Made by a program: the position numbers and the translations under genes. Shown here piece by piece: positions 7,575 to 35,720 of a stretch of DNA of 64,000 bases (position 1 is the stretch's first letter; every line of letters starts with the position of its first letter). The DNA is from Bdellovibrionota bacterium (lineage in GTDB: Bacteria > Bdellovibrionota > Bdellovibrionia > Bdellovibrionales > Bdellovibrionaceae), in NCBI GenBank assembly GCA_963170155.1, contig CAUJGP010000004.1:1-64000 (forward strand), in the 5' to 3' direction. The notes under the pieces were generated by a model. That model ran no database searches, was not told where the DNA came from, and worked only from the letters and a program-made list of their open reading frames with translations.

Positions 7575-7597
7575 AAATAATCCTGGAAAAGAAATCA

Positions 7598-8816: not shown

Positions 8817-8835
8817 ACGTTCTTTTATTGAACGT
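8817..8835. promoter_or_regulatory. Palindrome ACGTTC-N7-GAACGT, copy 2
   Basis: Same arms as the site at 6824-6842, with spacer TTTTATT instead of TTTTTTT. It lies in the divergent promoter region between the DUF1328 gene (start 8687) and the plus-strand gene at 8973, so it could serve either direction. Confidence 0.5.
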
Positions 8836-8972
8836 AGCTAGGAGAGTTTTGTGAACATACTTCCCCTCCATTGTTTTTTATTCCCTTCTCTCTCTCTTTT
8901 TCTTTGGCCTCAGTTTTGCTTTATTATTTTCTGTCCAAATGTTGTTTTGACAACTTAAACAAAGGAGTCCTT

Positions 8973-9158
8973 ATGAAAAACAATAAAGAAAACAGAAACA
9001 ATATGGATAAAAATAATAAACAAATGCCATCTCGAACAAATCCAGATCCTAAAACTAGATATCAACCCAATGATGCTAATGAGCGTAAACAATTCAACGA
9101 TCAAGATAAGGAGTCCAATCACCGCAATACACCCAATGATTCTAGAAACAAAGAATAA
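8973..9158 (+). CDS. Small disordered hydrophilic protein
   Basis: 61 residues from ATG at 8973 with AAAGGAG directly upstream; longer upstream readings run through that site. The composition is almost only N, K, R, D, Q, P, S and E, with no hydrophobic core, so it should be intrinsically disordered. Such hydrophilin-like peptides often accompany CsbD/DUF883 stress genes. I recognise no family. It is followed 69 bases later by a lipoprotein gene, probably on the same transcript. Confidence 0.65.
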   Translation: MKNNKENRNNMDKNNKQMPSRTNPDPKTRYQPNDANERKQFNDQDKESNHRNTPNDSRNKE

Positions 9159-9227
9159 AAGAATTTGAAATACTTATTAAAACTTAATTTTAAACAAGCA
9201 AACAAACAAAACCAAAGGAGATTCTAT

Positions 9228-9824: not shown

Positions 9825-9860
9825 TCTGAGCCTCTATACGAAAATCTTCTTGAACACTGT

Positions 9861-9894
9861 AATCCCGTCTCGCAAAGCGAGGCGGGATTTTTTT
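9861..9894 (+). terminator. Intrinsic terminator after the lipoprotein gene
   Basis: The stem AATCCCGTCTCGC pairs with GCGAGGCGGGATT over 13 positions (one G-T) around an AAA loop, followed directly by a run of T. This is a textbook Rho-independent terminator for the plus-strand gene. Its T-run touches the argS stop codon on the other strand. Confidence 0.92.
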
Positions 9895-11674
9895 ACATAC
9901 GCTCCGGCACAGAAATACCAAGCAAAGCTAAGCCCTCTTTTAAGACTTCTCTCGTAGCTTTAGCCAAAGCAAGACGATCTTGTTTCAACCCTTCAGATTC
10001 AGCCCGTCCAATGGGGCATTCATGATAAAACTGAGAAAAAAGTTTTGCGACTTCATAAAGATAATTACAAACAACATTGGGTCGATAAGTTTCTACCGCT
10101 TGAGCCATTTGAGAATTGAACTGGCCCAAAAGCATCATGAGCTGTAATTCCAAACTTTGCTTAAGATAATCCCCCTGAGAAAGCGGAATGTTCGTACCTG
10201 AAAATTTCCTCAGGATGCTTTGCACTCGTGCATAGGCATATTGAATGTAAGGGCCAGAATCGCCGTCAATCTTCAGCCACTCCGCCATATCAAAAACAAT
10301 TTTTTTATTGGGATCTATCTTCAACATCCCATACTTGATTGCTCCCTGAGAGATCACACTCGCTGTGGATTCAATTTCATCATTTGTCCACTCAGAACGG
10401 TAACGATCTAAATAGTTTTCTTTAACATGAGATTCCATCTGATGGATCAACTGAATCAAAGGCACAATATTGCCTTTTCGAGAACTCATGGCACCGTCCG
10501 GCAGTTCAACAAAATTGTATTGCAAGTGAAAACATTGATCCGCTTGTTTAAAACCCAAGCGTTTTAAACAAGCAAAAACCTGTTTAAAGTGAAGAGCTTG
10601 GCGCATATCAACGACATAGACGCTACGTTCGATCGAGTGCTCTTCAAATTTACGACGGGCCAACTCGATGTCTTTTGTGGAGTAAAGACCGTTTCCATCA
10701 GACTTTAAAAGCACGCAAAAACCAAGGTTTTCATCATTGAGGTCCATGCCAATGGCCCCTTCACTTTCCACTAACTTTCCTTCTGCAAAATATTTTTTTA
10801 CAGTTTTGACAGAATCAGAATCGACATCACTTTCCCAATACCAATGATCAAATTTAATGTGACACCATTGATAAATATCTTTCATCAAATCAATGGACCA
10901 CTGACGTGTTTCCAACCACAACGCATAAAACTCTCCAGAACGAGATTCAATTTGCTTTAAAATAGCAGAGAGTTTTTCACGATCATTGGCTTCTTCAGGA
11001 GTACCTTCATGATCTTCTAATAATAAATGAGCCTTAGAATACATACGTCCAAGCCATTCTCCCTTTCCAACGGAAGGAATAGGCTCTTGATTATGATACT
11101 TTAAAAACCAAAGACACTTCGCCACGTGGGTCCCCACATCGCCAGGAAAAGTGGTACTGATAATGGGAACTCCAGCATAGCGATTCAAACGCACCAAAGA
11201 ATCTCCCAGACACGCATTTCTCATGTGTCCCACATGGAGTTCTTTGTGCGTGTTTGGTTGTGAAAACTCAATCATTGTTTGCGGTGCTGATTCAAATAAT
11301 TTTTGTTTAAACCCTGCCCCTGTTAAGACAGGCTCCACAAGAGTCTTAAATAAAAACGGTCCTGAAAAAAAGAAATTCACGTAGGGACCAATGCTTTGAA
11401 CTCGATCGAAAGAACTTTGAGAAGAAGATTGTTGCTGTCTTTGTTGAAGCAATGCCGTGATCTGCTGAGCAATAACAGGTGGAGATGAACGTAATTTTTT
11501 TGCTAAAGGAAAAACGCCAAAAGCCAAATGCCCCATCTCTTGTTGAGGAGGAATGGTTAAAAGCGGATACAAGTCTTCGATAGTCAATGAAAGATCAGTC
11601 CAGTGACTTATCAGAGCTCGACGAAGCTCGTCTGCTAAGTTATGCTTTAAACAATCAAAAAGAAGTTTTTTCAT
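9893..11674 (-). CDS. argS: Arginyl-tRNA synthetase
   Basis: 593 residues, the usual length for this class I synthetase, which charges tRNA-Arg in the cytosol. Visible features are the N-terminal additional domain (residues 1-120), the HIGH-type motif HKELHVGHMRN near 150, a KMSKS-like MSSRKGN near 405, and the C-terminal DALR anticodon-binding domain with GDSGPYIQYAYARVQSIL at its start. It lies 55 bases after actF on the same strand with no clear terminator between, so it may be read through from the respiratory operon. Confidence 0.97.
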   Translation of the reverse strand: MKKLLFDCLKHNLADELRRALISHWTDLSLTIEDLYPLLTIPPQQEMGHLAFGVFPLAKKLRSSPPVIAQQITALLQQRQQQSSSQSSFDRVQSIGPYVNFFFSGPFLFKTLVEPVLTGAGFKQKLFESAPQTMIEFSQPNTHKELHVGHMRNACLGDSLVRLNRYAGVPIISTTFPGDVGTHVAKCLWFLKYHNQEPIPSVGKGEWLGRMYSKAHLLLEDHEGTPEEANDREKLSAILKQIESRSGEFYALWLETRQWSIDLMKDIYQWCHIKFDHWYWESDVDSDSVKTVKKYFAEGKLVESEGAIGMDLNDENLGFCVLLKSDGNGLYSTKDIELARRKFEEHSIERSVYVVDMRQALHFKQVFACLKRLGFKQADQCFHLQYNFVELPDGAMSSRKGNIVPLIQLIHQMESHVKENYLDRYRSEWTNDEIESTASVISQGAIKYGMLKIDPNKKIVFDMAEWLKIDGDSGPYIQYAYARVQSILRKFSGTNIPLSQGDYLKQSLELQLMMLLGQFNSQMAQAVETYRPNVVCNYLYEVAKLFSQFYHECPIGRAESEGLKQDRLALAKATREVLKEGLALLGISVPERM

Positions 11675-11729
11675 TCACCAGCAATGACCCGCTTTTTTAT
11701 ACCCCTTAAGATGGAGTACTTTTAAATTT

Positions 11730-12941
11730 TTAATAATTCACATGGTGATTAAGCGCTTCATGCATCCGTGGGTCTTTAATAGCGACAGGAGAGTTTTTCT
11801 CCAAAAATTTAAAGACTGAAAGCATGAAAACGCCAGCAACACCGGCAAAAACTAAGACCTCGATAACACCAAACTGCACAGAGTTATCATTGAAGTTAGG
11901 ATAAATCAGCCAGTACAAATCTAAAAATTGCATGACTAAAACACCCCAGCAAACTAACTTTAGAGTCCCTTCACTGCGCTTAACTCCTCGAGGTAAAAGA
12001 ATCAGAAAAGGAATGATAAAACGGAAAATCAATAGCGCCATTGAAATTCCTAACCATCCATTCTGAGAACGAAGAAGAAAAAACTCGGTCTCTTCAGGAA
12101 TATTCGCATACCAAATAAGCATAAATTGGCTAAAAGCAATGTAAGCCCAGAAAACAGTAAAACCTTTTAGATACTTTGCAAGGTCATGGATGTGCTCAAT
12201 ATTAATATAACCCTTCACCGCTCCGCTATTTACTAAAGCAAATGCAAATAAAATCATAGCTGCAAAAGTAGCTTGAATGAGACCCGAAAAACAATAAACA
12301 CCCCAAATAGTGCTGTACCAGTGGGGAAGGAGAGCCATTAGCAAATCGACACTAAAAAGACTAAACCCTAATGAAAATGCGAAAAGAAACGCAATACTCC
12401 ATGGGACAGCAGAATGCGTAAGTTGATCGTCTCCAGTTTTATCTTGTGTCAAAGAACGTCCCACAATCTGATGTCTAAAAAACCACATCAATAAACCAAA
12501 GCCAAAAAGCCGAATAAGAAAAAATGGATAATTCAAATAAGCTTTTTTAACATTTAAGAGAGCATCACTCGCCATTCTCTCTGCATCCGCCCAAGGATAA
12601 AGAGTCTTAAGGCCAAAAACGAGGATTAACCCTCCAACAAGCATAAAAGGAATAAAGGCTGTAAAAGACTCCCCGATTCTACGAACCGAAGAGCTCCATC
12701 CCGCTTTAGTGACGAAGTGAATGGCACTAAAAAAGAGTCCTCCGATAGCAAGACAAGAGAAGTAAAAGAAAGCGAGCAGAAAAGCGGGCCACACTTGATT
12801 TTGAAATTTGAAAATACCAACAATAAGGGCCAGCCCACCCAACGCTGCCGCTGCAACAGAAGCTGTTTTCACACCTGAGCTAGGTAAAAAAGGAGATGCT
12901 TGTAACTGAATTTGATGATGATCCGAATGATTGTTTGCCAT
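11730..12941 (-). CDS. actF: Alternative Complex III subunit F (membrane, quinol oxidation)
   Basis: ACIII oxidises quinol and passes electrons to a cytochrome c or an oxidase, replacing the bc1 complex. This 403-residue protein (ATG at 12941, directly after the actE stop) has about ten hydrophobic segments, no haem motifs and no cysteines typical of Fe-S. It fits ActF, the second polytopic subunit. Its position, last in an A-B-C-D-E-F gene order, is what fixes the identity. Upstream in-frame codons lie inside actE and are not used. Confidence 0.9.
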   Translation of the reverse strand: MANNHSDHHQIQLQASPFLPSSGVKTASVAAAALGGLALIVGIFKFQNQVWPAFLLAFFYFSCLAIGGLFFSAIHFVTKAGWSSSVRRIGESFTAFIPFMLVGGLILVFGLKTLYPWADAERMASDALLNVKKAYLNYPFFLIRLFGFGLLMWFFRHQIVGRSLTQDKTGDDQLTHSAVPWSIAFLFAFSLGFSLFSVDLLMALLPHWYSTIWGVYCFSGLIQATFAAMILFAFALVNSGAVKGYINIEHIHDLAKYLKGFTVFWAYIAFSQFMLIWYANIPEETEFFLLRSQNGWLGISMALLIFRFIIPFLILLPRGVKRSEGTLKLVCWGVLVMQFLDLYWLIYPNFNDNSVQFGVIEVLVFAGVAGVFMLSVFKFLEKNSPVAIKDPRMHEALNHHVNY

Positions 12942-20801: not shown

Positions 20802-21215
20802 ATGTTCTCTCAAGATTCAAGGTTCATCGTCATTGATGATTTTGCTACAATGCGAAAAATCATTAAAAAAGTCCTTAGTGAATTAGGTTACACAAATATC
20901 GACGAAGCAGAAGACGGGGCTAAAGCTCTTCCCATGATTCAAAAAGCGTCTAGCTCTGGTCAACCTTACCACTGTATTATCTCTGACTGGAATATGCCGA
21001 ATATGCAGGGAATCGATTTGCTCAAAGCTTGCAAAGCTGACGGAGCACTGAAAGACATCCCCTTTATGCTTGTCACTGCCGAAGGTGAACAAAAGCAAAT
21101 TGTAGAAGCCGCTAAGGCCGGTGTTTCAGATTATGTCGTCAAACCTTTCAACGCCCAAACATTGAAAGAAAAATTACAAAAAGTTTATGATCGTCACAAC
21201 GGCAAAGCCGCATAA
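20802..21215 (+). CDS. CheY-type single-domain response regulator
   Basis: 137 residues, a single receiver domain. Visible are the acidic pair in IDDF (residues 11-13), the phosphorylation site Asp62 in IISDWNMPN, the conserved Thr in FMLVTAEGE and the Lys in DYVVKPF. It closely follows the chemotaxis CheY pattern (NMPNMQGIDLLK) and so probably docks at the flagellar switch or a similar target. The next gene, 14 bases downstream, is a CheX-type phosphatase that would dephosphorylate it. Confidence 0.93.
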   Translation: MFSQDSRFIVIDDFATMRKIIKKVLSELGYTNIDEAEDGAKALPMIQKASSSGQPYHCIISDWNMPNMQGIDLLKACKADGALKDIPFMLVTAEGEQKQIVEAAKAGVSDYVVKPFNAQTLKEKLQKVYDRHNGKAA

Positions 21216-21229
21216 GGTAGGATAAACCC

Positions 21230-21736
21230 ATGGGAGCAGCACCAAATTCAAGTTCAAATATTTTTTTCGACAAGGCCTTATTAAACACCTTTGCGGACAG
21301 CATGATTAAAACTCTGGGAGACATGGCGCAAACCAAAGTCACACCTGGTAAGCCGAGTATTGAAAATAAAATCGGTGCCCTCAAAGGTGAAGTAGCAGGA
21401 ATTATCGGAATGGTGGCTGGAGGCGCTAAAGGCACACTCATCATCTGCTTTTCCACCAAAAGCGCTTTCAAAATTATTGAAAACATGTTGGGAGAAGTCC
21501 ATACCGATCTCACTCCCGAGGTGACAGATGCTGTTGGAGAACTCACAAACATGATTTACGGCTCCGCCAAAACCACTCTCAATAAAATGGGATATGAGTT
21601 TGAAATGGCCATTCCCACTGTCGTCACTGGAGACTTTCAAATTGGCGGAAGCCATACCGGCGTTAAACTCAGCATTCCTTTCATCATTGAACCTGATGCC
21701 GCCACGATTTACGTGGAAATCATTGTTCAACAGTAA
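21230..21736 (+). CDS. CheX/CheC-like phosphatase
   Basis: 168 residues. The signature EVTDAVGELTNMIYGSAKTTL near residue 100 contains the Glu-x2-Asn pair that CheC/CheX/FliY proteins use to dephosphorylate CheY-P. The C-terminus VKLSIPFIIEPDAATIYVEI is also typical. GGTAGGA lies before the start. Co-transcribed with the CheY gene, it forms a response-regulator/phosphatase pair. Confidence 0.88.
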   Translation: MGAAPNSSSNIFFDKALLNTFADSMIKTLGDMAQTKVTPGKPSIENKIGALKGEVAGIIGMVAGGAKGTLIICFSTKSAFKIIENMLGEVHTDLTPEVTDAVGELTNMIYGSAKTTLNKMGYEFEMAIPTVVTGDFQIGGSHTGVKLSIPFIIEPDAATIYVEIIVQQ

Positions 21737-23417: not shown

Positions 23418-23581
23418 TTATAGGGTGGTTCAAAAGAAATTAATTCGATTTAACAAAGATTTGTCAGGTACGATTTTTGAACTTAAGGATTCATGAAGCA
23501 AAAGGAGACGCCCCGCGTATTAAAAGGGCCATTGAAAAATTAAATAAAATAACTATATTAACGGAAACATTAGGAGAACCT

Positions 23582-24028
23582 ATGCAAACAAAATACAAAA
23601 CAATCTTCAATAATTCTCGTGGCATGACCCTTGTGGAAATTCTCATCGTGCTAGCTATTATCGGCTCCATTATGGCCGTAATAGGCGGACGAGTCATGAC
23701 GAGTTTGCAAAAGTCCAGGGTTAAACAAACAGGAATCATTATGAGCCAACTCTCAAGTGCGCTTGAACTGTATTACTCTGATTGCAATAAGATGCCTCAA
23801 AGCCTCAAGGCCCTGATAGAAAGCCCCGGAGATGAGGAATGTGCTGACTGGGGACCAACACCTTACGTCAAAAAAGATCTTTTAAAAGATGCTTGGAGCA
23901 GGGATTTTGTTTATGAATCAGATGGATCCACATTCTCTTTAAAAAGTCTAGGTAAGGATGGACGCGAAGGTGGCTCTCAATTTGATAAGGATCTCTCTTT
24001 TGATGAGAAGGATTCTTCAGATAAATAA
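23582..24028 (+). CDS. gspG: GspG, major pseudopilin of type II secretion
   Basis: 148 residues from ATG at 23582 with TTAGGAGAA upstream; the 35 codons before it in frame lie beyond that site. The prepilin leader ends SRG, cut before MTLVEILIVLAIIG with Glu at +5. The C-terminal part keeps the GspG pattern (YVKKDLLKDAWSRDFVYE, LKSLGKDGREGG), where the calcium-binding loop lies. It builds the periplasmic pseudopilus that pushes folded proteins through the outer-membrane secretin. It is the first gene of the local gsp series. Confidence 0.95.
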   Translation: MQTKYKTIFNNSRGMTLVEILIVLAIIGSIMAVIGGRVMTSLQKSRVKQTGIIMSQLSSALELYYSDCNKMPQSLKALIESPGDEECADWGPTPYVKKDLLKDAWSRDFVYESDGSTFSLKSLGKDGREGGSQFDKDLSFDEKDSSDK

Positions 24029-24157
24029 TCACTATAGCGAGACTATCTCTCTCAGCGAACACCAAAGAACTGGAGAGCAAACAAAAGCTCTGGGACCTTT
24101 TGAAATCTGACCATCTGCGCATTTGACGTTCCCAAGGACTCTTCTTAAACTGGTCCA

Positions 24158-24757
24158 ATGAATCGAATGCGCCACAATAAAAATGGCTTTACTCTCATTG
24201 AAATCCTCGTCGTCCTCGCCATCATTGCAGGGCTTGCAACGATTGGCGTTCGACGTATAAATCAAACAGAAAATCTAAAAACCTCTGTTCGAAGGCTCTC
24301 CACAGTCCTCAAAAAAACCAGAGCTTATGCCAAACTCACGAATAAAACATATCGTCTGGTCATTAAAACAGACCCCAAAGAAGCTGATAGTTACTGGATT
24401 GAAAGCTCCAATAAACTTCATCTCATCGACCCAAAAGCAGAGGATCACTTTAATAAGCTCTCTGATAAAGATAAAGAGACTGCTCAAAAAGAATTTCAAC
24501 CCGCAACGGACATCCTCTCCAAACCCAGAACAATCCCTGATGAATGGTCTTTTGAATTGGTAGAGTCAACCGGACACCCTGAAGGTAAAAAAACAGAACT
24601 TTCCTATATTTATTTTTTCCCGCAAGGAGTTTCTGAAGAGGCGATCATTCAAATTACAAATAAAAAAAAAACCACATGGACTCTCTATGTTCACCCTCTG
24701 ATCAGCCATCCTGAAATCTTTCAAGAAGCAAAAAGGCTTAAGGACTTTTCAAAATGA
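24158..24757 (+). CDS. gspH: GspH minor pseudopilin
   Basis: 199 residues. The leader is short (NKNG), then FTLIEILVVLAIIAG with Glu +5, and a GspH-like globular domain. It is a minor pseudopilin in the T2SS pseudopilus. A 130-base gap separates it from gspG, and its start has only a weak ribosome site; ATG at 24167 is an alternative. Its stop overlaps gspI by ATGA. The H assignment rests on position and size more than sequence. Confidence 0.85.
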   Translation: MNRMRHNKNGFTLIEILVVLAIIAGLATIGVRRINQTENLKTSVRRLSTVLKKTRAYAKLTNKTYRLVIKTDPKEADSYWIESSNKLHLIDPKAEDHFNKLSDKDKETAQKEFQPATDILSKPRTIPDEWSFELVESTGHPEGKKTELSYIYFFPQGVSEEAIIQITNKKKTTWTLYVHPLISHPEIFQEAKRLKDFSK

Positions 24758-25308
24758 AAAAAGCTCTGTTAAAACAAAAACGATGGCTTGAACGAATACC
24801 AACAGCCGCCCCGCTCAAACCGCAAGGGTTTTCTCTTGTTGAAGCTCTTATTTCAATGGTGATTATGGCAGGAGCTTTAATTCTTCTTTCCAATACCTGG
24901 GGAAGCGCGTTTCGGGCACAGAAAAAGGGAAAGCAACAATATGAAGTCTCCATCCTTTTAGAACGTAAACTGACCGAATTAGATCTCGAGTTTCGCGGAA
25001 AACCCCTGACGGAAATTCCTGACGAGCGCGAAGGGGATTTCAGTAAAAACTACCCTAATGCAAAATGGAAAATGACATCCAAAAAATTTGAGTTTCCAGA
25101 TGTTTCAGGCTTATTAAAAGCTCGGGATCAAGGCGCCGATGATATGTCTAATATGCTTTTTGCAAAACTACGAGAACACTTGAATCAGTCCATCAAAGAA
25201 GTCAAAGTGACTGTGATGGTCACAGAGAACAAAAAAACACGCGAATACAGCGCGGTCACTTTTTATGTTGATTATGACCAAAATATTTCTATTGGCGGCT
25301 TTCAATGA
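24754..25308 (+). CDS. gspI: GspI minor pseudopilin
   Basis: 184 residues with an unusually long basic leader (25 residues, rich in K and R) before G-FSLVEALISMVIMAG. Glu lies at +5. GspI forms the core of the pseudopilus tip with GspJ and GspK. It is coupled by ATGA overlap to gspH and gspJ. At 184 residues it is longer than typical GspI (about 120-130), with an added charged middle segment. Confidence 0.87.
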   Translation: MKKALLKQKRWLERIPTAAPLKPQGFSLVEALISMVIMAGALILLSNTWGSAFRAQKKGKQQYEVSILLERKLTELDLEFRGKPLTEIPDEREGDFSKNYPNAKWKMTSKKFEFPDVSGLLKARDQGADDMSNMLFAKLREHLNQSIKEVKVTVMVTENKKTREYSAVTFYVDYDQNISIGGFQ

Positions 25309-26252
25309 AAAAATCATCGGGCTTTACCCTTGTTGAAACCATTATCACCTTAATGATCATGTCAGTACTCACCATCATGGCGGCTCGAACGATCCAGCAA
25401 GCCTTTCATGCCCGTAATAAAATTCAAAACCAGATTGATCAAACCAGCCAAGTCAAAGACACTCTCCGATTGATGGAAAAAGACATCAACCTCGCCTATC
25501 ATCATCTTGACCTTCAGAAAGAACTCGCAGAAGAACTGGCAAAGACTCAAAAAAACCCTCAAAATCCAAGAATGAACCCTGGGCAATCGCCCCCCGGAAT
25601 GCCTCAATCTCCTGGTATGGGAGGAAGCTCAGCGCCTTCTTCCACTTCGAACAATCCTTACTTAAAAACAGAAAATCGCGTTAGCCCCACCACTCAATTT
25701 ATCGCCAAAGAGTCTGAAATGCACTTTGTCACCATGAACACCGTGCGACTCATGAAAGATTCTCCCCAAGCGGATTTTGGTGAGGTGTCTTACTACCTAG
25801 ACTCTTGTAAAATTCGTGCTGATAAAAGATTTGAATCCGGAAAATGCCTCTACCGACGCACTTCGCCTCTGGTGGATAGAGACCCCACCAAGGGCGGGTC
25901 AGCCACCCAACTCCTCATGGATGTCACTGATTTTCAACTAAGATATTATTCTCTGATCCAAAAAGATTGGAGAAAAGACTGGAACTCCCAAGAGGAAAAC
26001 AGCGATAACAACACCAAAAACCGTTACCCTGAAGCCATTGAAATCAATCTCACTGTAGAGCCTACTCCCAAAGATAAAAGCGAAAAAAAGAAAAAAATAA
26101 GCCTCCAATTGGTTGTTCCCATTCATTTTCCCAATAACAAAGATCCTAACACTCAAAATAACCAAAACTCGCCCTCTCAAAGAGGAGGTTTTTTACCCAA
26201 TTCACCGGGTGGAGCGAATTCTCCCGGCGACTCTGGAGGATTTGGTCCATGA
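25305..26252 (+). CDS. gspJ: GspJ minor pseudopilin with low-complexity inserts
   Basis: 315 residues. The leader is KKSSG, then FTLVETIITLMIMSVL with Glu +5, and the helix continues to about residue 75. A Pro/Gly/Met/Ser-rich insert follows at about 85-120, then the GspJ globular part, then a Pro/Asn/Gly-rich tail over the last 40 residues. Typical GspJ is about 200 residues and lacks both inserts. It is translationally coupled to gspI and gspK and should sit at the pseudopilus tip. Confidence 0.88.
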   Translation: MKKSSGFTLVETIITLMIMSVLTIMAARTIQQAFHARNKIQNQIDQTSQVKDTLRLMEKDINLAYHHLDLQKELAEELAKTQKNPQNPRMNPGQSPPGMPQSPGMGGSSAPSSTSNNPYLKTENRVSPTTQFIAKESEMHFVTMNTVRLMKDSPQADFGEVSYYLDSCKIRADKRFESGKCLYRRTSPLVDRDPTKGGSATQLLMDVTDFQLRYYSLIQKDWRKDWNSQEENSDNNTKNRYPEAIEINLTVEPTPKDKSEKKKKISLQLVVPIHFPNNKDPNTQNNQNSPSQRGGFLPNSPGGANSPGDSGGFGP

Positions 26253-27493
26253 AAAAAAACTTTCTTTCAAACTCCAAAGGAATTGCGCTTCTGCAAACGT
26301 TGTTTCTCGTCACATTGATCATCTTTATCGTGAATCAAGTGAATTTCGAAACCGCGGTTGAATATACCGTCAACGCTCAAGCACTCCACCAAATCAAAGC
26401 CTACCAAGCTGCCAAATCAGGTATGGAGATCAGTCTTTTGCGCATTAGCATTTACAATAAAGTGATGGATCAACTCACGAGCTCCATGGGTAAGGAGGCC
26501 GCCAGTAGCATGAGTCAAACACTCAATATGATTTATTCTTTTCCGCTGACTTGGCCGATGGTCCTGCCAGCAGAGGTTTCCTCCTTGGAAAAAGAAAGTG
26601 TGGAGAACCTCAATGAAAAATCTTTTATGGACAGCACTTTTGCGACACAAATCCAATCAGAAGATTTACTCAACATCAATGATTTAGATTCTCCCTTAGA
26701 AAGCCAAAGAGAACGTGTTAAAAATGCCCTTTTGGAATTATTCAAAGGAAAAATGGAAATAGATCGAGACTGGGCCGCTCGCAACCGCGATGTTCCCTTT
26801 GAAGAAATCATCAATAATATTAAAGATTGGATTGATCCAGACACTCAAAGCAGCTCCGGTGGTGATGAAAGGCGGTACTATGCCCGCCTTCGTGAATTAG
26901 ATCGCGACAATCTCGATCCCTACCCTCCAAATCGACACTTTCGTACCATTGATGAAATCCGCATGGTCCCTGGAGTGAATGATGAAGTTTTTGAGCTTAT
27001 TAAGCCGGGGTTTTCTGTCTTTGGCCCCATGGGGATTAATCCCAATTTGGCCGATCAAGGCGCCTTGAAATCCCTGCATAAATCCATCACGGACGCCGTC
27101 GCTCAAAAAATCATAAGCCGACGGGAAAATATGAATGAAGGTGGACCCTACCAAAATGCCGAAGATTTTTTTAGTTTTGTGAATCGACAAGACGGTGGAA
27201 GGATCACTCCCGAGGATCAAAGCAAGATTCCTCTGCGCTTCGGGAATCCCTGCAACTTCAGAATTCTATCCACCGGATCCAGTGGAAAAACAGTCGTCAC
27301 GATCACCGCCATCACCTATGATATTACTTGTTCACAAACAGAACTTTCGAGCGAAATGAGCAAGGCCAATCCCAACCCCAATCCTAATAATCCACAACAA
27401 CCGCCCCCCACAAATAATCCCTCTGGTGAGGGACGAAATAATCAAAAACGTCCTAAGGGTCCACCTCGAATCGTCTATTGGAATGAACAATAA
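26249..27493 (+). CDS. gspK: GspK pseudopilus tip protein
   Basis: 414 residues. The leader ends SKG, then IALLQTLFLVTLIIF; position +5 is Gln, not Glu, as is characteristic of GspK, the tip subunit. A large alpha-helical domain follows, with the family helix-hairpin-helix-like segments (GSGGDERRYYARL..., FRTIDEIRMVPGVNDEVF, PINPNLAD-like GINPNLADQGAL). The last 45 residues are a Pro/Asn-rich tail (NPNPNPNNPQQPPPTNNP) not usual in GspK. ATGA overlap with gspJ. Confidence 0.93.
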   Translation: MKKNFLSNSKGIALLQTLFLVTLIIFIVNQVNFETAVEYTVNAQALHQIKAYQAAKSGMEISLLRISIYNKVMDQLTSSMGKEAASSMSQTLNMIYSFPLTWPMVLPAEVSSLEKESVENLNEKSFMDSTFATQIQSEDLLNINDLDSPLESQRERVKNALLELFKGKMEIDRDWAARNRDVPFEEIINNIKDWIDPDTQSSSGGDERRYYARLRELDRDNLDPYPPNRHFRTIDEIRMVPGVNDEVFELIKPGFSVFGPMGINPNLADQGALKSLHKSITDAVAQKIISRRENMNEGGPYQNAEDFFSFVNRQDGGRITPEDQSKIPLRFGNPCNFRILSTGSSGKTVVTITAITYDITCSQTELSSEMSKANPNPNPNNPQQPPPTNNPSGEGRNNQKRPKGPPRIVYWNEQ

Positions 27494-27616
27494 GTCTCGA
27501 TGGTCTCGCCCAGTTCAGCAAAAATCAAAACCCTCTTTGCAAAAACTCAATCGGCTATTTTCGTCTCAAAATGATTCATACTGAACCTTTCCATTCTACT
27601 CAAGCAAAACAAAAGT

Positions 27617-27664
27617 TTTATTTATTCTCATAAATAAACAGATTTTATTTTTATTTTTATTTTT
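27617..27664. repeat. Inverted repeat and T-rich hexamer repeat upstream of the giant pilin gene
   Basis: Bases 27617-27638 form TTTATTTA-TTCTCA-TAAATAAA. Bases 27642-27664 consist of ATTTT followed by three ATTTTT units. The block lies about 80-130 bases upstream of the 27747 start, within a 250-base gap in an otherwise tightly packed gsp series, so it may be a separate promoter. The hexamer run could in principle vary in length. Confidence 0.5.
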
Positions 27665-27746
27665 GATCAACTTTTTAAAAACTTACTGTAAACTTAAACA
27701 ATAGGGTTTGAAAAAGTTCGTCAATCTCACAGACTAGGGGTTTACC

Positions 27747-30700
27747 ATGGTTAACAATAATGGTGAAACATCGTTAAAAAAAAGAAAAACCATCTTCATG
27801 AAAAAAAACTTCATCCACTTTAAATTCAAACCTCTTAATGACCATGGATACAATCTAGTTGAAATTGTGCTGGCTATGGCAGTGAGCGCCATCGTGCTTG
27901 GGGGAGTGATCAGCACCCTCAACGTCGTCACCTCAGGAAGCGCGCAGTACAACTTACTCCAAGCCCGCAATGAAGTTCTGAATAAAATTCGCATTCAAGC
28001 GATGAATCCTGCCAACCTTGTCGCCTCCGCTCAAATGACAGATAGCCTGGGTGCCGCGGGTGTCTCACCCGATTATGGACCGGAAAGCTCTCTTCTTCGA
28101 CCTGACCTTTTAAAAAAATGTCTTCCCGATATCAAAGATACAGAGTCCTTTGGTTGTAATAAGGCTGAATTTGAAGAACCTGGTAAAGGTTATTTATTTT
28201 ATCTTGCAGAAAATGCTTCAATTTCTCCTGAAAAAGCCGTCGCAGGAGAAGACATTTATTATCGCAATACCGGGATGAGATGCCCTCAAAAAGATGCCGA
28301 AAAACCTGAAAGCTGTCCATTAATGGCTCGAGTGTGGTTTGAACCGTTTTGCATGAACTTTGCAACCAGCTGTACAAAAGCCATGTCCCTCGCACTTCGC
28401 TATTCTATTGGGCTTCGTCCTGACTTCAAAACTGATTTAGCGGTGCCGAGCATCTCTGGAGAGTTTTATGTCCCTCTTCAAAAAGGGATTCAATTAAGAA
28501 ACCTTTTATCGGATCTTGATAGCCCTATTCTTCCTAACAGCAAGGGGCTTTTCATTGTTGAAAAATTCTATGGACATCCTGGACAATCGGTCAAGGGATT
28601 GCGCTTTGAAACACTTATCAGCAATCCTTATGGGCTTCTTTCCATGCGATTACAAATGCGATCCCTCACTGGATCTGAGGCAAAGATGTACGATGACTCT
28701 GTCATTCCTGAGGACTTGCTCGCAAAGTCTTGGACTGACATGCCCACTCCCGAAAATGAAGGCATGGGATCCTGGGCGGTCAATCTCTCGGGAGCGTACC
28801 CCAACCAAGTCTTTAATTTTGGCACACAAATCAATCCGGGAGCAAACTCTCGATCCATTCCCACCGCCTTTAAAATTGGTTCTGACAATATCCCTTTAGA
28901 TCCGAAGTATCGTTGGACTCTAAACGAAAGCCAGTCCGATTATTTAGCTCCTGCTTTTAAGTCAGGATTTTATCAATTTCGAGTGCTTGCTAGTGATGCT
29001 TTAGGAGGAGAAATGGAATCCACTAATTACATCACTGTGAGATTGGTCTCTATCCCTGAATACCAATACGTTAATCCTAACTTCACTCTTGATCGAGATT
29101 GCCAATCCTCTGCAGAATCATTTTCTATTTTTGTCGGAGACGATGAATCAATGACTTTTCGCTCTTTGAAAATCAATAACCAAAATTATCCGATCAACAC
29201 CTCTCCTCAAGCGAAAGATCGCATTGATTTTATTTTTCAAAAAAATCAACCAGCGGCTTCCTACCCGGTTACAATCACTATCAAAAATCGCTTTTCGGAT
29301 GCTCCACTGGAAAATAATTTCATTCCTCGAGTAGAAAGAACACAAGTAATTAACTTAACGGATATTCCTGCATCTACCAATCCGGGGATATCTCACGATC
29401 CACTCACGATGAAAATCAATGCCCATGGGAATGTCACTGTCCAGTTTTCTGCGGGAAACTGCTGCGATGCCACTCCTAAAGTGGAATGGAGCTATTTATG
29501 CTCCACCTACTTCACAGGCGGCGTTGCGGCTCTCTGCGCTTCCGGCACAGGACTTTCATTGCTGTCGGGTCCAAACACTTCTCAAATGAACTGCTCTGTC
29601 AGTGGAAACACACGATCTTGCTCCTCTACCATCTCGGTGAAAGCAGAAGGATACAGTCCGTCTATGACGACTCCACCGGCTAACATTAAAGCTGCGGTCG
29701 ATGTTCATAGTTCTGCCAGCGCCTGCGCACTCACTCCCACGGCCACATCTTTGTCTAAGCACGTCCCTATCGTGAATCTTCCGAATATTTATTTTTATCT
29801 TACTGAATCTTTATGGCTCGATCTTCCAGCAGGGCCTGCCACATCCTCTACCCCTGCTTTAGAAGCTGTTGTCCCTCGAGTGGTTGTTCGCAGTGATTTT
29901 CCACCAACAGTTTCAGTTCAAGTGAACGTTCTCAACGCTGAAACCAGCCAGGTATACTGCACCTTGGATTTTCCAGCGAGCACCTCTTCAACCACACCCA
30001 TTGACCGATTTTGCACTAATATTCCAACGAATTTTTCAGGGCAATTGATTTTGCAAAAAGCACCTTCGTCTTCTCATCTTATTAAAACAGAAATTGATCT
30101 TACCCAAGCGAGCCATGTGGCACGACTCGAAGGGAATATCACTCACCAATTCTGTCGCAGCGGAATCACTCATTTACTCGATCAGCCAGCCAAATATACC
30201 GTGCCAGCAACAATCCCCATGAATGACACGCCCTACAGCTACACGGTAGTCGATGGTAGTATCATTCAAGACTCTAAAAATGATACGGGACAATGGCTTG
30301 CGGGACGCCAAAAAAGCTTGCGCTGTTATGATGGATGGACCAATTACTCACCCTCAAGCTACCCTCATCATAAACAAGATTTTTATGATGTCTTTAATTA
30401 CAATAACTCAAATTCATCCAAAAGAAATAACTCCTTTCAATTGAGTTTTGCAACCTTTGAATTTCCATCCAACCCTCCCATCAACATCGATAAATCGACG
30501 GCCAATAGCCCTTATATATTTATGGTCCTTCAAGAAGGCTCTCCTGGCACGATTCGATGGAGTTATAGTGTGTCAAGTTCTGGTGACAAATCTGCGGCCA
30601 GTTCAGAAGCTCAGAGTTGGGAAATTATAACACCTCAAGTCTGCTCAGGATCTTCGAGTCTCAACAAAATCAAATTACTGAGAACACGAGTGAGCGTGGA

Positions 30701-30848
30701 AACAGGTAATCCCAACGTTATTATGAAAGCGGTCAACTCTGGAGCTAGTGTAGGAATGGTCAACCATGGTTATTATTCTTACTTGTTCATGTGCAACTAT
30801 GGACGCTGGCATCCATCCGGTAAAAGCTATAACAATTGGATTGACTAA
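27747..30848 (+). CDS. Giant pilin-like protein (1033 residues)
   Basis: A prepilin-type leader ends NDHG (Gly34), then YNLVEIVLAMAVSAIVLGG with Glu at +5, so a prepilin peptidase should process it. The pilin helix runs to about residue 95. A domain with cysteines 125, 137, 179, 190, 202 and 209 follows, including YYRNTGMRCP...CPLMARVWFEPFC. Further on, about 280-440 contains an Ig/cadherin-like strand pattern (FYQFRVLASDALGGE), then a long Ser/Thr-rich region with more cysteines. Ordinary pseudopilins have 120-350 residues. ATG at 27747 has AGGGG seven bases before it; ATG at 27798 would also keep the leader. It may be a tip adhesin or a secreted filament subunit. Confidence 0.85.
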   Translation: MVNNNGETSLKKRKTIFMKKNFIHFKFKPLNDHGYNLVEIVLAMAVSAIVLGGVISTLNVVTSGSAQYNLLQARNEVLNKIRIQAMNPANLVASAQMTDSLGAAGVSPDYGPESSLLRPDLLKKCLPDIKDTESFGCNKAEFEEPGKGYLFYLAENASISPEKAVAGEDIYYRNTGMRCPQKDAEKPESCPLMARVWFEPFCMNFATSCTKAMSLALRYSIGLRPDFKTDLAVPSISGEFYVPLQKGIQLRNLLSDLDSPILPNSKGLFIVEKFYGHPGQSVKGLRFETLISNPYGLLSMRLQMRSLTGSEAKMYDDSVIPEDLLAKSWTDMPTPENEGMGSWAVNLSGAYPNQVFNFGTQINPGANSRSIPTAFKIGSDNIPLDPKYRWTLNESQSDYLAPAFKSGFYQFRVLASDALGGEMESTNYITVRLVSIPEYQYVNPNFTLDRDCQSSAESFSIFVGDDESMTFRSLKINNQNYPINTSPQAKDRIDFIFQKNQPAASYPVTITIKNRFSDAPLENNFIPRVERTQVINLTDIPASTNPGISHDPLTMKINAHGNVTVQFSAGNCCDATPKVEWSYLCSTYFTGGVAALCASGTGLSLLSGPNTSQMNCSVSGNTRSCSSTISVKAEGYSPSMTTPPANIKAAVDVHSSASACALTPTATSLSKHVPIVNLPNIYFYLTESLWLDLPAGPATSSTPALEAVVPRVVVRSDFPPTVSVQVNVLNAETSQVYCTLDFPASTSSTTPIDRFCTNIPTNFSGQLILQKAPSSSHLIKTEIDLTQASHVARLEGNITHQFCRSGITHLLDQPAKYTVPATIPMNDTPYSYTVVDGSIIQDSKNDTGQWLAGRQKSLRCYDGWTNYSPSSYPHHKQDFYDVFNYNNSNSSKRNNSFQLSFATFEFPSNPPINIDKSTANSPYIFMVLQEGSPGTIRWSYSVSSSGDKSAASSEAQSWEIITPQVCSGSSSLNKIKLLRTRVSVETGNPNVIMKAVNSGASVGMVNHGYYSYLFMCNYGRWHPSGKSYNNWID

Positions 30849-31519
30849 TGAGAATCAATAATTCGCGGGGTGTTTCAGTACTACTCGTCATCATAGGTCT
30901 TGGCTTGCTCGCCATGATCGTCCAGAGCAATTTAGTTTCTGAATTTTTAAATCTTCAGAAGGATTGGAAAAATTCAACGACCTTTGCCAATAAATACCAT
31001 CTCCTTCATTCACTGTCGGAAGATTTAGCCCATGGAACTCCTCTTCAATTTTCACGTTATGACATCAACAACTCTTTAAGACAATGCCTCACGGCGCAAG
31101 CCTCTTGTGATGAAACTCAATTTTATGAAATGGCGCTATTTGCTCCCATTCTTCAGCAGAGCTTCCAAGGAGGACTGTGGCCACCAGCCCCGTTCGGAGC
31201 ACCCCTCATTGCAGGAGGAAAAAACAATTACGTCACACTTTATCGCAGTTCAGGAGATCGGTGTCCCCTTCAAAAAACAGCTGCGGATTCCTTTTGCCCT
31301 CTTCAAGCTATCGTTGAGTTTCGCCCTTTATGTGGTGGAAGCATTGATTTCCCCGCATTCAATACACCTCCCGGTCCTTGCACTCAACCAGCCACAGGTG
31401 TTGAAATCACAATCGGTGTGGCTCGACTTATGAATGGACGTCTTGTTTATCGCAGGAACGTAGATTCAGGAGGCGATGCCAAAGTGTATCGTTTTCCGGC
31501 AAGCCTCTTAAGAAACTAA
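30848..31519 (+). CDS. Pilin-like protein sharing a cysteine pattern with the giant pilin
   Basis: 223 residues, starting on the last base of the giant pilin stop (TAATG). The leader NNSRG precedes VSVLLVIIGLGLLAMIV; +5 is Leu, so it lacks the usual Glu, as tip subunits like GspK do. The core LYRSSGDRCP...CPLQAIVEFRPLC (Cys 139, 150, 162) has the same spacing as Cys 179, 190 and 202 of the upstream protein. The two are thus probably paralogous in this domain and may pair as a tip complex. No named family recognised. Confidence 0.82.
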   Translation: MRINNSRGVSVLLVIIGLGLLAMIVQSNLVSEFLNLQKDWKNSTTFANKYHLLHSLSEDLAHGTPLQFSRYDINNSLRQCLTAQASCDETQFYEMALFAPILQQSFQGGLWPPAPFGAPLIAGGKNNYVTLYRSSGDRCPLQKTAADSFCPLQAIVEFRPLCGGSIDFPAFNTPPGPCTQPATGVEITIGVARLMNGRLVYRRNVDSGGDAKVYRFPASLLRN

Positions 31520-31565
31520 GACCCACTCCTGATAAAAATTGAAATTTAGAGAAAGGATCTCCATC

Positions 31566-32048
31566 ATGTCTCCAACATCAGAACCCGCTTCAACAAAAGA
31601 TTCACGCAACAGCAAGAAAGCTTTCACACCTCATCGCTCCATGTTTCGATTTTTAATTTATCCCGGTAAACAACTCAAATATGCTTACTTTCATTTTCTT
31701 ATCGTGGGCCTCGCTGTTCTCATCGTCAACGCTGCCGCTTATTACAAATATTCTCAGCTCGTTCAGATCAACACTCATGTGGCTACACAAAGTTTATTGT
31801 ACGAATACATTACGTTTATTTCTCTGATCACCATTGTCACTCTTGTCCTCGTGGGTGTTTGCACCTTCTTCATTGTGATTATTTTTCTTCATCGGTTTGT
31901 AGGTCCAATGCTTCCACTTCTTCGACATCTAGAAGCGCTCCTTGCAAAAGACTATTCCTATCGAACCTTCCTGCGCTCCGACGACGAAATAAAGGAATTA
32001 GGACAAAAACTCAATGAAGTCTCAGAGCAATTACAAAAAAATAGATAA
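31566..32048 (+). CDS. Membrane protein with HAMP-like domain and no output domain
   Basis: 160 residues from ATG at 31566, with AAAGGA eight bases upstream. Two membrane helices (about 40-65 and 80-110) flank a short periplasmic loop. The C-terminal 50 residues match HAMP (GPMLPLLRHLEALLAKDYSYRTFLRSDDEIKELGQKLN). HAMP normally passes signals to kinase, cyclase or chemoreceptor domains, but none follows. It sits between the pilin pair and gspL, so a structural or signalling role in the secretion machine is possible but unproven. Confidence 0.8.
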   Translation: MSPTSEPASTKDSRNSKKAFTPHRSMFRFLIYPGKQLKYAYFHFLIVGLAVLIVNAAAYYKYSQLVQINTHVATQSLLYEYITFISLITIVTLVLVGVCTFFIVIIFLHRFVGPMLPLLRHLEALLAKDYSYRTFLRSDDEIKELGQKLNEVSEQLQKNR

Positions 32049-32284
32049 ACAATCTCACCTCGGGCAGTTCTAAAATCCAGTTCCTGATCATGACTCGCGA
32101 ACGAATCCAAAGAAGAAAGAATATTCCAGACAAACGTCTGCATCGCTATGCTCTCTCGTTCGCATAAAATATAAAAAACAGCAGGAATCTCACGCCCATC
32201 CGAAACTATGACTTCCCTTGGAACCCCATCCCATTGTATGGTGGAATGAGTACGGTAATGAATTAAAAATGAAATCAGATTCAT
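31958..32284 (-). CDS. Possible antisense small protein
   Basis: A 108-codon open frame from ATG at 32284. The first 78 codons fill the 275-base gap before gspL and read like protein (GVPREVIVSDGREIPAVFYIL); the last 30 overlap the 3' end of the HAMP gene on the opposite strand. No clear ribosome site, and it runs against the operon. It may be chance. Confidence 0.25.
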   Translation of the reverse strand: MNLISFLIHYRTHSTIQWDGVPREVIVSDGREIPAVFYILCERESIAMQTFVWNILSSLDSFASHDQELDFRTARGEIVYLFFCNCSETSLSFCPNSFISSSERRKVR

Positions 32285-32323
32285 ATTCCATGAATCTCCT
32301 AGAAATGATTTTAAGGATGAAAC

Positions 32324-34024
32324 GTGCGCACGGTTGGTATTGATATCGGCTCTTATTCAATCAAGGTTTGTATCATCAGCACCAGTAAAAAAGGTCTGTT
32401 CCTGGAGCAATACTTGGAACGCGCACTGGTGAGTGATAATCCTTATGATCGTAATATCGAAATCATTGAGTTTTTGCGAACAGAATTAGCGTCTCAAGAT
32501 CCAATGCAAACAAAATTTGTTTGCTCTATCCCTCAAGATCTTGTTAGTGTCCACACTAAAATTTTTCCCTTTAAGGATAGAATAAAAATTTTCCGTAGCC
32601 TGCCTTTTGAATTGGAAGAAGACACCCCCTTTAGCCCCGAAGAAACCATTTTTGATGGGCGCATTGTTCGCATCGAAGCCTCTCAATCAGAAGTGCTTGC
32701 CTGCGCTTGCCCCAAAGAGGTTATTAAAACACAACTGCAATTAATGACAGAATCCGGCATCACTCCTCATCTGCTCACACCCGAGGGATTGGGCTTTGCT
32801 AATCACTTTGAAAATTGGGTGATGCCCATTCCTACAACCAGCTCTATTTATGATCCCACAGTGCCTTCGGAAAGACCCATCCCTCCTCGCAACTGCGAAG
32901 CCGTTTTAAATCTAGGACATCGAAAAACGATTCTTTTGATTCTAGAAGGTGGAAAACTGGTGGATGTGCGAAGTCTCTCTTGGGGTGGAGAGAACATTGC
33001 AAAGGCTATTCAGGAAAAATATAATATTCCCTATCAGCAAGCCCTCAAGCAACTCCAAGAAAATTCTTTTATCCTCACAAGCCACGAAGGTGCGACAGAA
33101 GATCAAATTTATTTTTCCAACCTCATCTCCGGTGTTGTAATGGAGATGATTCGAGAACTCCGCCTCATACTTATGGAAGTCCAGGCTTCTGCCAACGTCT
33201 CCATCAACTCCATTCAAATGACCGGTGGAGTCAGTCGCGTGCAAAACCTTTCCGCTTTTCTCACTCAAGGAATAGAGCTTCCGGTCAATAAATTTTATGT
33301 TCTCAATAATTATCCCAATATGGGTTTTGAAAAAACCTCCTGGATCGAAGCAGGGTGTTCCACCGCTCTAGGGCTCGCCATTGAAGGATTAAGAAAACCT
33401 CGCAATCCTGCGGTTTCTTTCTTACGGGGCGAATTTGCGGTACAATCCCACGCTATCAAAAACTTCATGGAAACATGGGGGACGACTCTAAAGGTAGCGG
33501 CCCTCGGCGTTTTCATCCTGTATGTGTACAGCAGCTTTCGTGACTCCATGGCGTTATCTATGGTCGATGAAGCCGATATTGTCATGAAAGATCAAGCCCA
33601 AGCCATCGCCAAACTCAAAGGAGCCAAAGCTTCTGAAGCCGGTATTGAAAAATTCATTGCCAACAAAAGAAAATCCATCAAAGAGCTCAAAGATATTGAA
33701 AGCTATATTGGTATGAACTCCGCACTGGAGATCTTGAAAAAAATTAATGACGCCGCTCCAGGAAGATCCACGCTGCGCATGGAGGTTCGAAAGATGTCCA
33801 TCAAAGACTCCACCGTGAAAATGGAGGGCTATGTCTCCTCGGCGAAAGAAACTGCAATGCTGCAAGAGTCTCTTCGGAGTCTCGCTAAAGATTTAAAAAT
33901 TAAAACCATCCCTTTTCAAATTCAATTGCCTCCAGGAAAAATTGGCTTTGGCTTTGAATTCTCTGTGGACCGAAACGTGAGGGTTGCAAAAGATAAAAAT
34001 GCTTCAGGGAGTAAAACGGAATGA
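32324..34024 (+). CDS. gspL: GspL, inner-membrane assembly protein of type II secretion
   Basis: 566 residues from a GTG with TAAGGA seven bases upstream. The N-terminal 340 residues are an actin-like PilM/GspL domain (VGIDIGSYSIKV at residue 4, MTGGVSRVQNLSAF near 298). A membrane helix at about 387-402 and a periplasmic helical plus ferredoxin-like domain follow. GspL couples the ATPase GspE to the membrane platform and to GspM. gspE is not in the window. ATGA overlap with gspM. Confidence 0.9.
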   Translation: MRTVGIDIGSYSIKVCIISTSKKGLFLEQYLERALVSDNPYDRNIEIIEFLRTELASQDPMQTKFVCSIPQDLVSVHTKIFPFKDRIKIFRSLPFELEEDTPFSPEETIFDGRIVRIEASQSEVLACACPKEVIKTQLQLMTESGITPHLLTPEGLGFANHFENWVMPIPTTSSIYDPTVPSERPIPPRNCEAVLNLGHRKTILLILEGGKLVDVRSLSWGGENIAKAIQEKYNIPYQQALKQLQENSFILTSHEGATEDQIYFSNLISGVVMEMIRELRLILMEVQASANVSINSIQMTGGVSRVQNLSAFLTQGIELPVNKFYVLNNYPNMGFEKTSWIEAGCSTALGLAIEGLRKPRNPAVSFLRGEFAVQSHAIKNFMETWGTTLKVAALGVFILYVYSSFRDSMALSMVDEADIVMKDQAQAIAKLKGAKASEAGIEKFIANKRKSIKELKDIESYIGMNSALEILKKINDAAPGRSTLRMEVRKMSIKDSTVKMEGYVSSAKETAMLQESLRSLAKDLKIKTIPFQIQLPPGKIGFGFEFSVDRNVRVAKDKNASGSKTE

Positions 34025-34764
34025 ACCTGAACGACATTTTAGATCAACTCAAAGATCAACTTAAAACCACGTGGGATAAAATCCAAGAGTCTAGCGCTTA
34101 CCAACAAGCCATGGAAAAATATGAGGATCTTCCCTCTTCACAACAAAGAATGATTCGTCTTGGTGGAGGTGTGCTACTCATCCTCTTTATCCTGAGTCCC
34201 CCCATCTCCTCTCTTCTGAGCAGTCAAGAAGTCATTGAGGAATACGAACGCAAACGCACCATCACACGAGAACTCCTCCAAGTCGTCAGAGATTCAGCCA
34301 ATGCGCCCAATATCCTACCCGCGCCGGATCTGTTTTCGTTGCAAAACCGTTTTCAACAAGATCTACAAAATGATCGCTTACTCCCTGAACAAATTTATTC
34401 GATCCAATCTGACAGCGATAGCGGTAAAATTATTCCTCAACGGCTCAGTCTGGGAGCTTTATCTGTCAATTTAAAAAACCTCAATCTTCGACAAATCGTG
34501 GACATTGCCCATCGGCTCTCATCCGTGACATCCACCCTTAAAATGACAGAACTGGAAATGACCGCCAGCCCTGACAAGCCGGGATATTTTCACTTTACAT
34601 CAAAACTGGTGTCACTGAAAACCCCTCCGCCACCACCTCCCCCAGAAGTCGATGCTCCTCGACCCCGAGGATCCAGACCTCCGGGCGCTCAGCCTAAGAA
34701 CCAAAACTCCTCTGATGAAGAGAGTTCTATGGGCGGATCGAATCGTGAGGATTTCGAAGAATGA
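34021..34764 (+). CDS. gspM: GspM, inner-membrane platform protein
   Basis: 247 residues: a cytoplasmic helical N-terminus, a membrane helix at about 46-66 (RLGGGVLLILFILSPPISS), then a periplasmic domain. The order gspL-gspM, the length and the topology support GspM, although the family is weakly conserved. The tail from about residue 203 is unusual, with seven consecutive prolines and then P/R/S/E-rich sequence. ATGA overlaps on both sides. Confidence 0.82.
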   Translation: MNLNDILDQLKDQLKTTWDKIQESSAYQQAMEKYEDLPSSQQRMIRLGGGVLLILFILSPPISSLLSSQEVIEEYERKRTITRELLQVVRDSANAPNILPAPDLFSLQNRFQQDLQNDRLLPEQIYSIQSDSDSGKIIPQRLSLGALSVNLKNLNLRQIVDIAHRLSSVTSTLKMTELEMTASPDKPGYFHFTSKLVSLKTPPPPPPPEVDAPRPRGSRPPGAQPKNQNSSDEESSMGGSNREDFEE

Positions 34765-35720
34765 AAAAACCAGAGCTTTCTATTGTGATTAAAAGTTTAC
34801 GCAAACCTTTTTTATGGACTCTTCTTTTTACGCTCGTTTTCTTTGTGATCTTGTTCCCTACAGATGATCTGGGCGACTTGGTCTCTTCCAAAGTGTCTGA
34901 ACTCACTCAAAATCAAGTTTTCTTACAGTTCAATAATTTTAGTTTTAACTTAACGCCTCCTGGTGTTGAATTTACGGATATCTTTGTAGAAACCGCTTTT
35001 GCTCCTGGAATTAGTGCTGATGAAATCATTATTTCACCTTCTCTCGCTGGCATCATCACTCAAAAACCCTACGGAAGCGTTAAAGCCTTAGGCCTCCTCA
35101 ATGGAGAGCTACAAATGTCTGTCAAAAAAGGCCAACCCACAGAAACCGGTAATGACCGCCAAAGACTCGTTATCAATATGGAGGATCTTAGCTTAAACTC
35201 CCTTAAAGATTTCTTAAAATTGCCTTTAGCGATAGAAGGTAAACTCTCTCTTTCTGCTGATGGCCAAAGTGATTTAGAATTAAGTGAGCAGCCGGACGTG
35301 GATTTGAGCATTAATATTCAGAAGTTTTCTCTTCCGCCCGCCACATTGAACACCATGATGGGGCCCATTACGCTTCCGGATATGAAATTAGATCAAGTGC
35401 ACCTCAAAGGCCGCCTCTCCAACGGAAAATTCAATGTGGAAGTCGGAGACATCGGCAAGAAACAAAATGATCTCTTTGGAAAAATAAAAGGTTTTTGGAA
35501 CATCAATATTCTCATGATGAACGGTCGTCCCATTCCTCAATTTGGGTCTTATAATCTCGATATCAACCTCGTCACCAACAAAACTTTTCAAGCTAAAGCC
35601 AGTTTGTTTTTATCACTGCTCGATCAATACAAATCCAACACCGCGGAAGGCACGCGCTATCAATTCAAAGTTTCCGCACCGGACTTGCAAAACCCTCCCA
35701 GCATCACCGGCTCTAGATAA
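34761..35720 (+). CDS. gspN: GspN-like protein of the type II secretion cluster
   Basis: 319 residues: a membrane anchor at about 17-32, then a large beta-rich periplasmic domain similar in style to GspN and AsmA-type proteins (VFLQFNNFSFNLTPPGVEFTDIFV). GspN is an accessory protein found in some T2SS loci, of uncertain role. It closes the local gsp series and faces ftsI. The assignment depends on position after gspM and general fold. Confidence 0.75.
   Translation: MKKPELSIVIKSLRKPFLWTLLFTLVFFVILFPTDDLGDLVSSKVSELTQNQVFLQFNNFSFNLTPPGVEFTDIFVETAFAPGISADEIIISPSLAGIITQKPYGSVKALGLLNGELQMSVKKGQPTETGNDRQRLVINMEDLSLNSLKDFLKLPLAIEGKLSLSADGQSDLELSEQPDVDLSINIQKFSLPPATLNTMMGPITLPDMKLDQVHLKGRLSNGKFNVEVGDIGKKQNDLFGKIKGFWNINILMMNGRPIPQFGSYNLDINLVTNKTFQAKASLFLSLLDQYKSNTAEGTRYQFKVSAPDLQNPPSITGSR

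Follow-up and report, generated by a model that had tools for sequence, protein, structure and literature searches.

The locus described here raises the question why two pilin-like genes lie between gspK and gspL of a T2SS locus and which machine their products would serve. The window, i.e. the whole stretch of 64,000 nucleotides that was analysed, belongs to a Bdellovibrionaceae genome of 2.85 Mb (G000). The original prediction had placed two paralogous, cysteine-patterned pilin-like proteins between gspK and gspL, and the open reading frames, BLASTP and profile searches confirmed this. It had further proposed a tip complex or a surface adhesin. The prepilin features of the proteins, their six-cysteine head and the beta-rich distal part of the larger one argue for such a function.

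Organization of the locus

The stop codon of the large pilin P0001 and the start codon of the small pilin P0002 share one base (TAATG). Directly after the pair follows a third gene, which had been left out of the original prediction and codes for a protein with two transmembrane helices and a HAMP-like C-terminus (Table 1). The HAMP match of 21 bits lies under the Pfam cut-off of 25. The G+C content of the cassette (0.40-0.46) resembles that of its surroundings. Because a promoter and terminator scan around the cassette yielded signals at chance level, solely the 253-bp gap between gspK and P0001 (27493 to 27747) suggests a separate transcription of the cassette. The T2SS genes of this genome appear to be split: the gspG-N-type genes are located within the window at 23567-35720, and a second contig (G000:C27:47415-52086) carries genes for a GspC-like protein and an ATPase of the GspE/PilB-like type.

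Table 1. Features of the pilin cassette and its borders in the window
Feature	Position	Strand	Remarks
gspK	26249..27493	+	T2SSK_1st E 3.5e-9; flanks the cassette upstream
Large modular pilin P0001, 1033 aa	27747..30848	+	Leader to G34, helix ~37-104, six-Cys module, beta-rich domains ~256-1033
Six-Cys module of P0001, Cys125-Cys209	28119..28373	+	Cys positions; HMM match 28020-28427 E 5.1e-37 (query includes the P0001 module)
C-terminal beta-strand-rich region of P0001	28512..30845	+	Without Pfam family; low-confidence model; proposed display/adhesive part
Small pilin P0002, 223 aa, without Glu+5	30848..31519	+	
Six-Cys module of P0002, Cys80-Cys178	31085..31381	+	HMM match 31067-31339 E 2.6e-6
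Third cassette gene, protein with two TM helices and HAMP-like C-terminus, 160 aa	31566..32048	+	HAMP E 4.2e-4, 21 bits
gspL/PilM-type gene	32324..34024	+	PilM_2 E 4.4e-20; flanks the cassette downstream

N-termini and architecture of the pilins

Prepilin-type N-termini had been claimed for both proteins and were found in both. The motif of P0001, G34/YNLVE, carries a glutamate at position +5 (E39), and that of P0002, G8/VSVLL, consists of a glycine and a hydrophobic helix without Glu+5. G34 and E39 are kept in all orthologues of P0001, in line with a type IV prepilin (class III signal), while Glu+5 is absent from every orthologue of P0002 as in GspK-type tip subunits. Thus, the predicted asymmetry, which resembles that of body and tip pseudopilins, holds across the orthologues. 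An alternative start of P0001 at 27798 would result in a 17-residue leader like those of the orthologues; the start at 27747 has the stronger Shine-Dalgarno sequence. P0001 displays the architecture of a modular pilin, i.e. an N-terminal six-cysteine pilin module followed by about 780 residues of beta-rich domains.

Pfam and NCBIfam held no family for P0001 or P0002 apart from a sub-threshold prepilin motif in P0001 (N_methyl, 13.2 bits with a cut-off of 21.2). Specifically, neither protein matched the GspG-K families in these databases or, even at E<=1, the Tad families, including minor pilins of the TadE/F/G class. The PilY1 beta-propeller of Pfam (PF05567) was not matched by P0001; its profile had zero matches in 10 genomes, where the control likewise gave none anywhere. 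A sequence search of known structures with the pilins returned nothing significant. The predicted models reached a pLDDT of 62 for P0002 and 50 for P0001. A fold search with the P0002 model gave no match at E<=0.001, and the folds matched by the P0001 model, of the Ig, cadherin and glycan-binding kinds, did not exceed a TM-score of about 0.2; we take these matches as 'beta-rich' only.

The shared six-cysteine module

The C-x10-C-x11-C spacing reported for both proteins is exact, with Cys 179/190/202 in P0001 and 139/150/162 in P0002. The shared upstream pair is present as well, yet the common set comprises six cysteines and not the five that a count of three plus two had implied: 125, 137, 179, 190, 202 and 209 in P0001, and, in the same order, 80, 87, 139, 150, 162 and 178 in P0002. 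All six are kept in 9 large and 8 small orthologues with a constant distance of 12 between Cys4 and Cys5. The small pilin of locus L024 has one additional cysteine within the membrane helix. The total number of cysteines is even in every large protein (16-24), which is compatible with disulfides.

P0001 and P0002 matched each other by BLASTP with an E-value of 4e-6 and in a profile-profile comparison with 1.5e-4 at a probability of just 52%. An HMM of the large modules scored the small modules at 7.6-24.4 bits, and shuffled sequences with fixed cysteines at up to 5.4 bits. The reverse search of large modules with an HMM of the small ones was weaker (10.7-22.9 bits; shuffles up to 11.9-13.3 bits, with the best of about 930 at 11.9 bits). 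A wider six-cysteine profile built from 12 proteins, with no small subunit among them, retrieved the small pilins of G000 (2.6e-6), G023 (9.3e-9) and G355 (4e-9) as well as those of G029 and G035. Throughout the 2.85 Mb of G000 it matched just two proteins, P0001 and P0002. Judged by sequence comparison P0001 and P0002 are paralogues, and the result with the wider profile is the strongest evidence. Both models contain a long N-terminal helix, a cysteine-bearing loop and a beta-sheet that begins right after Cys4, the first main strand spanning residues 192-201 in P0001 and 152-161 in P0002 at low confidence. Thus the order of elements agrees, yet models of this quality do not suffice as proof of a common fold.

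Distribution of the pair

Among 369 Bdellovibrionota genomes the full-length pair was present in eight, G000, G023, G029, G035, G059 and G095 of the same order, and G350 and G355 (locus L024) of the same phylum outside this order. Divergent relatives were detected in G016 and at a second locus of G095. The large and the small gene are neighbours in all eight full-length genomes, where they overlap or lie within about 40 bp of each other; in most cases there is an overlap or a distance of a few bases. The named matches are confined to Bdellovibrionaceae and Bdellovibrionales; the lineage specificity suspected initially is supported. The two genes travel together through this bacterial group, most of whose members are predators. 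When genomes are compared in pairs, the identities of the large pilins correlate with those of the small ones (r=0.98), although common ancestry alone also raises r.

The cassette is 38% identical to that of G023 and 35% to that of G059. Because these values track the identities of GspK and GspL to the same genomes (37% and 35%), an ancient presence with loss and relocation would fit the sequences as well as transfer. Cargo of a mobile element or phage was discarded: viral contigs, plasmids and phages held no match, the window contains no tRNA, and the border repeats are short and imperfect (a 20-nt pair with 75% identity).

Relation to the T2SS

The original prediction had the structure built by the secretion machine. 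This part is unsupported, because linkage to gsp genes is not conserved: one of the eight full-length pairs, that of the window, is part of a T2SS locus, and no gsp gene was present in the stretches read around the other seven. The original prediction had made gsp linkage in relatives its own yardstick, and by it the T2SS link fails. A caveat is G022, where a different six-cysteine pilin of 375 aa is located inside the gspK-gspL gap. This gap was surveyed in 119 genomes of the order that carry gspK and then gspL on one contig. Its median length was 91 bp with less than 400 bp in 103 genomes; it was longer in the remaining 16, including the window with 4833 bp, and the long gaps that were inspected mostly contained unrelated genes. 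In G017, the closest genome by gspK/gspL identity (49-50%), the reading frames of both genes are separated by 5 bp. Since seven pairs have no gsp neighbours and long gaps mostly hold unrelated genes, the cassette entered, or stayed in, a permissive joint of the gsp operon. In genus g6 (L098, L099; G005, G029, G088) the gspL-M-N block is located upstream of gspF-K and not downstream, about 8-9 kb before gspK.

If the pair extended the T2SS pseudopilus, it would form an alternative tip on GspG and aid in the secretion or selection of particular substrates. The gene position in the window, a Glu+5 asymmetry like that of GspJ and GspK and the six-cysteine pilin in the gap of G022 agree with such a role, and the machine exists in nearly every genome of the order (133 of 141). 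Yet this near-universality makes co-occurrence of T2SS and cassette non-discriminating, and nearly all relatives possess a T2SS without the pair. Furthermore, the other seven pairs reside away from gsp genes, the gaps of relatives are filled mostly with unrelated genes, and a distal module of about 780 residues would fit poorly beneath the secretin. Thus we consider a T2SS extension unlikely; on the synteny evidence a T2SS component was dropped as first choice.

The HAMP-like third gene

The third gene was found at the equivalent position in G023, G029 and G035. Locus L024 (Bdellovibrionales RIFOXYD1; 5069-12623) comprises two large pilin genes, a single small one and two HAMP-like genes, a row which indicates that the trio acts as a single cassette. 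Altogether, a HAMP-like gene adjoins the pair in five of eight genomes; the family is common within the order (131 of 141 genomes).

This neighbourhood, and the joint duplication of the HAMP-like and the large gene in L024, would also suit pilin-like proteins that are never polymerised, i.e. membrane-anchored adhesins or receptors signalling with the HAMP-like protein, or a DNA-uptake pilin. However, three of the eight genomes lack the HAMP-like neighbour, and the prepilin motif of the large subunit with its Glu+5 is retained in all orthologues, so that we regard this explanation as quite improbable.

The wider family of six-cysteine pilins

At E<=1e-4 the six-cysteine module was detected in 59 of the 369 genomes of the phylum. 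We read 18 additional loci besides others; in all 18, picked mostly for more than one match, two or three six-cysteine pilins are located side by side. No pilB, pilC, pilT or gsp gene was present within the stretches read there. An exception is L080 (G139), where a six-cysteine pilin follows pilC-pilS-pilR. Several six-cysteine pilins scored above the cut-off of N_methyl, the family of type IVa/T2SS prepilins.

Other family members recur with other C-terminal modules: Laminin_G_3, RCC1, TSP1, Calx-beta, Big_9 (Ig) and S74, the phage tail-fibre chaperone, which we take to be IPR030392. S74 is attached to all three six-cysteine genes of G351 and of G336. These Peptidase_S74 triads, at L142 7219-13001 (G351:C23) and L154 5890-10470 (G336:C9), belong to two genera. 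S74 domains trimerise in fibres, and for this reason three tandem pilins with one S74 each are suggestive; they possibly form tail-fibre-like heterotrimers borne by a pilus. In G010 the modules are RCC1 repeats and, on a partner pilin, the lectin-like Laminin_G_3; both of its clusters, L143 7061-10813 and L144 7665-11385, contain an RCC1 repeat protein and L143 the Laminin_G_3 pilin. Calx-beta was found in G132, thrombospondin-1 and bacterial Ig modules in G005. Here, the triad L108 3907-8125 (G005:C22) codes for proteins of 242, 264 and 540 aa, the last with the TSP1 repeats, and comes immediately after the cheY-cheX genes that are also present at 20802-21736 of the window. G002 has thrombospondin-1 on a pilin-like protein of 593 aa at a locus with weaker six-cysteine matches. 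This locus, L075 4941-12010 on a single contig of 2,657,893 bp, carries three large prepilin-like genes that are scattered within 8 kb; thrombospondin-1 repeats are on the one that was tested. From its sequences, the family looks like a carrier with interchangeable display modules.

The candidate machine

PilT was above cut-off in all eight genomes tested, and the window genome has a type IVa pilus machine of its own, encoded by a pilB-pilT-like-pilC-pilS-pilR locus. No physical link of the cassette to type IVa pilus genes was found in the eight full-length genomes. Prey entry of B. bacteriovorus involves pilus retraction (PMC11003981). Because of this retraction, the presence of PilT in eight of eight genomes and the pil locus of G000, the type IVa pilus is preferred.

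A tip complex of a different, Tad/Kil-like filament, comparable to the Myxococcus KilLMN tips, has in our estimate an even smaller chance than unpolymerised pilins, because no Tad family was among the Pfam matches of P0001 and P0002 even at E<=1 and several six-cysteine pilins surpass the cut-off for type IVa/T2SS prepilins. The general plan would fit, however: unlinked paralogous clusters of two or three minor pilins, in which one large subunit ends in a variable domain and disulfides are numerous. On structural grounds, Kil-like tips have been proposed for Bdellovibrio (PMC12075869).

Thus we favor, with moderate confidence, the view that the pair is a minor-pilin tip cassette that forms an adhesive cap, probably on a type IVa pilus.

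Discussion

P0001 and P0002 would be synthesized as prepilins and cut after the conserved glycine, with the N-terminal helices anchoring them in the inner membrane. The six cysteines of each pilin probably form disulfides in the periplasm, and the two proteins may pair via the shared pilin module into a heteromeric cap. Like GspK, P0002 without Glu+5 would cap the filament, and P0001 with Glu+5 would reside beside it and connect the cap to the shaft. The chain of beta-domains of P0001 would then be shown at the tip, where it might bind prey, surfaces or polymers. The machine would most likely be the cell's own type IVa pilus, and the HAMP-like membrane protein may assist the cassette or serve as its sensor.

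In the open-access literature we found no description of the six-cysteine pilin family. Modular pilins as such are known and widespread, and PilB of Streptococcus sanguinis with its grafted module is a proven adhesin (PMC8179133). PilB and PilC of S. sanguinis, CofB and TcpB share with the present proteins a pilin module with a large grafted C-terminal module and a predicted location at the tip, and the partner modules are partly on the published list (PF13385 lectin-like; IPR030392). In contrast, the pilins reported here use a specific six-cysteine module outside Pfam and NCBIfam, the large one is always paired with a small six-cysteine pilin, and the distal module of P0001 is unnamed.

Myxococcus kills prey with a Tad pilus that has four interchangeable tips made of minor pilins (PMC12075869). 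Unlinked minor-pilin clusters, a variable end on the large subunit, predicted disulfides and a predator lineage are common to both systems; KilLMN, however, is of the Tad class with three subunits, and tip1-4 were reported to be restricted to Myxococcota by sequence. Myxococcus further possesses three type IVa minor-pilin/PilY1 clusters (PMC13190605), which likewise provide alternative tips from genes away from the main pil locus. There, PilY1 is separate and accompanied by four minor pilins, whereas here the display part is fused to the pilin and two or three pilins are present. The GspI-GspJ-GspK tip resembles the cassette in having a subunit without Glu+5 beside subunits with Glu+5 and in the gene position of the window, yet the cassette has no T2SS linkage in relatives and no sequence match to the GspI/J/K families. 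The MAT fibres of B. bacteriovorus, some with S74 (PMC10769870), also represent predator proteins for binding that are large, mosaic and diversified, and some six-cysteine pilins share the S74 domain; MAT fibres are trimeric, however, and pilins are unmentioned in that study.

Tentatively, we consider the possibility that Bdellovibrionota keep dispersed, interchangeable pilus-tip cassettes on one six-cysteine scaffold, each with a different binding module (lectin-like, RCC1, thrombospondin-1, Calx-beta, Ig, S74 or the unnamed one of P0001). Mutants in single adhesins of Bdellovibrio-group predators are masked by redundancy (PMC11003981). The six-cysteine module with swappable ends in cassettes of two or three genes provides concrete candidates for prey recognition by type IV pili. 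If the view of a repertoire were true, the cassettes would act like the receptor-binding proteins of phages and set which prey or surface is gripped.
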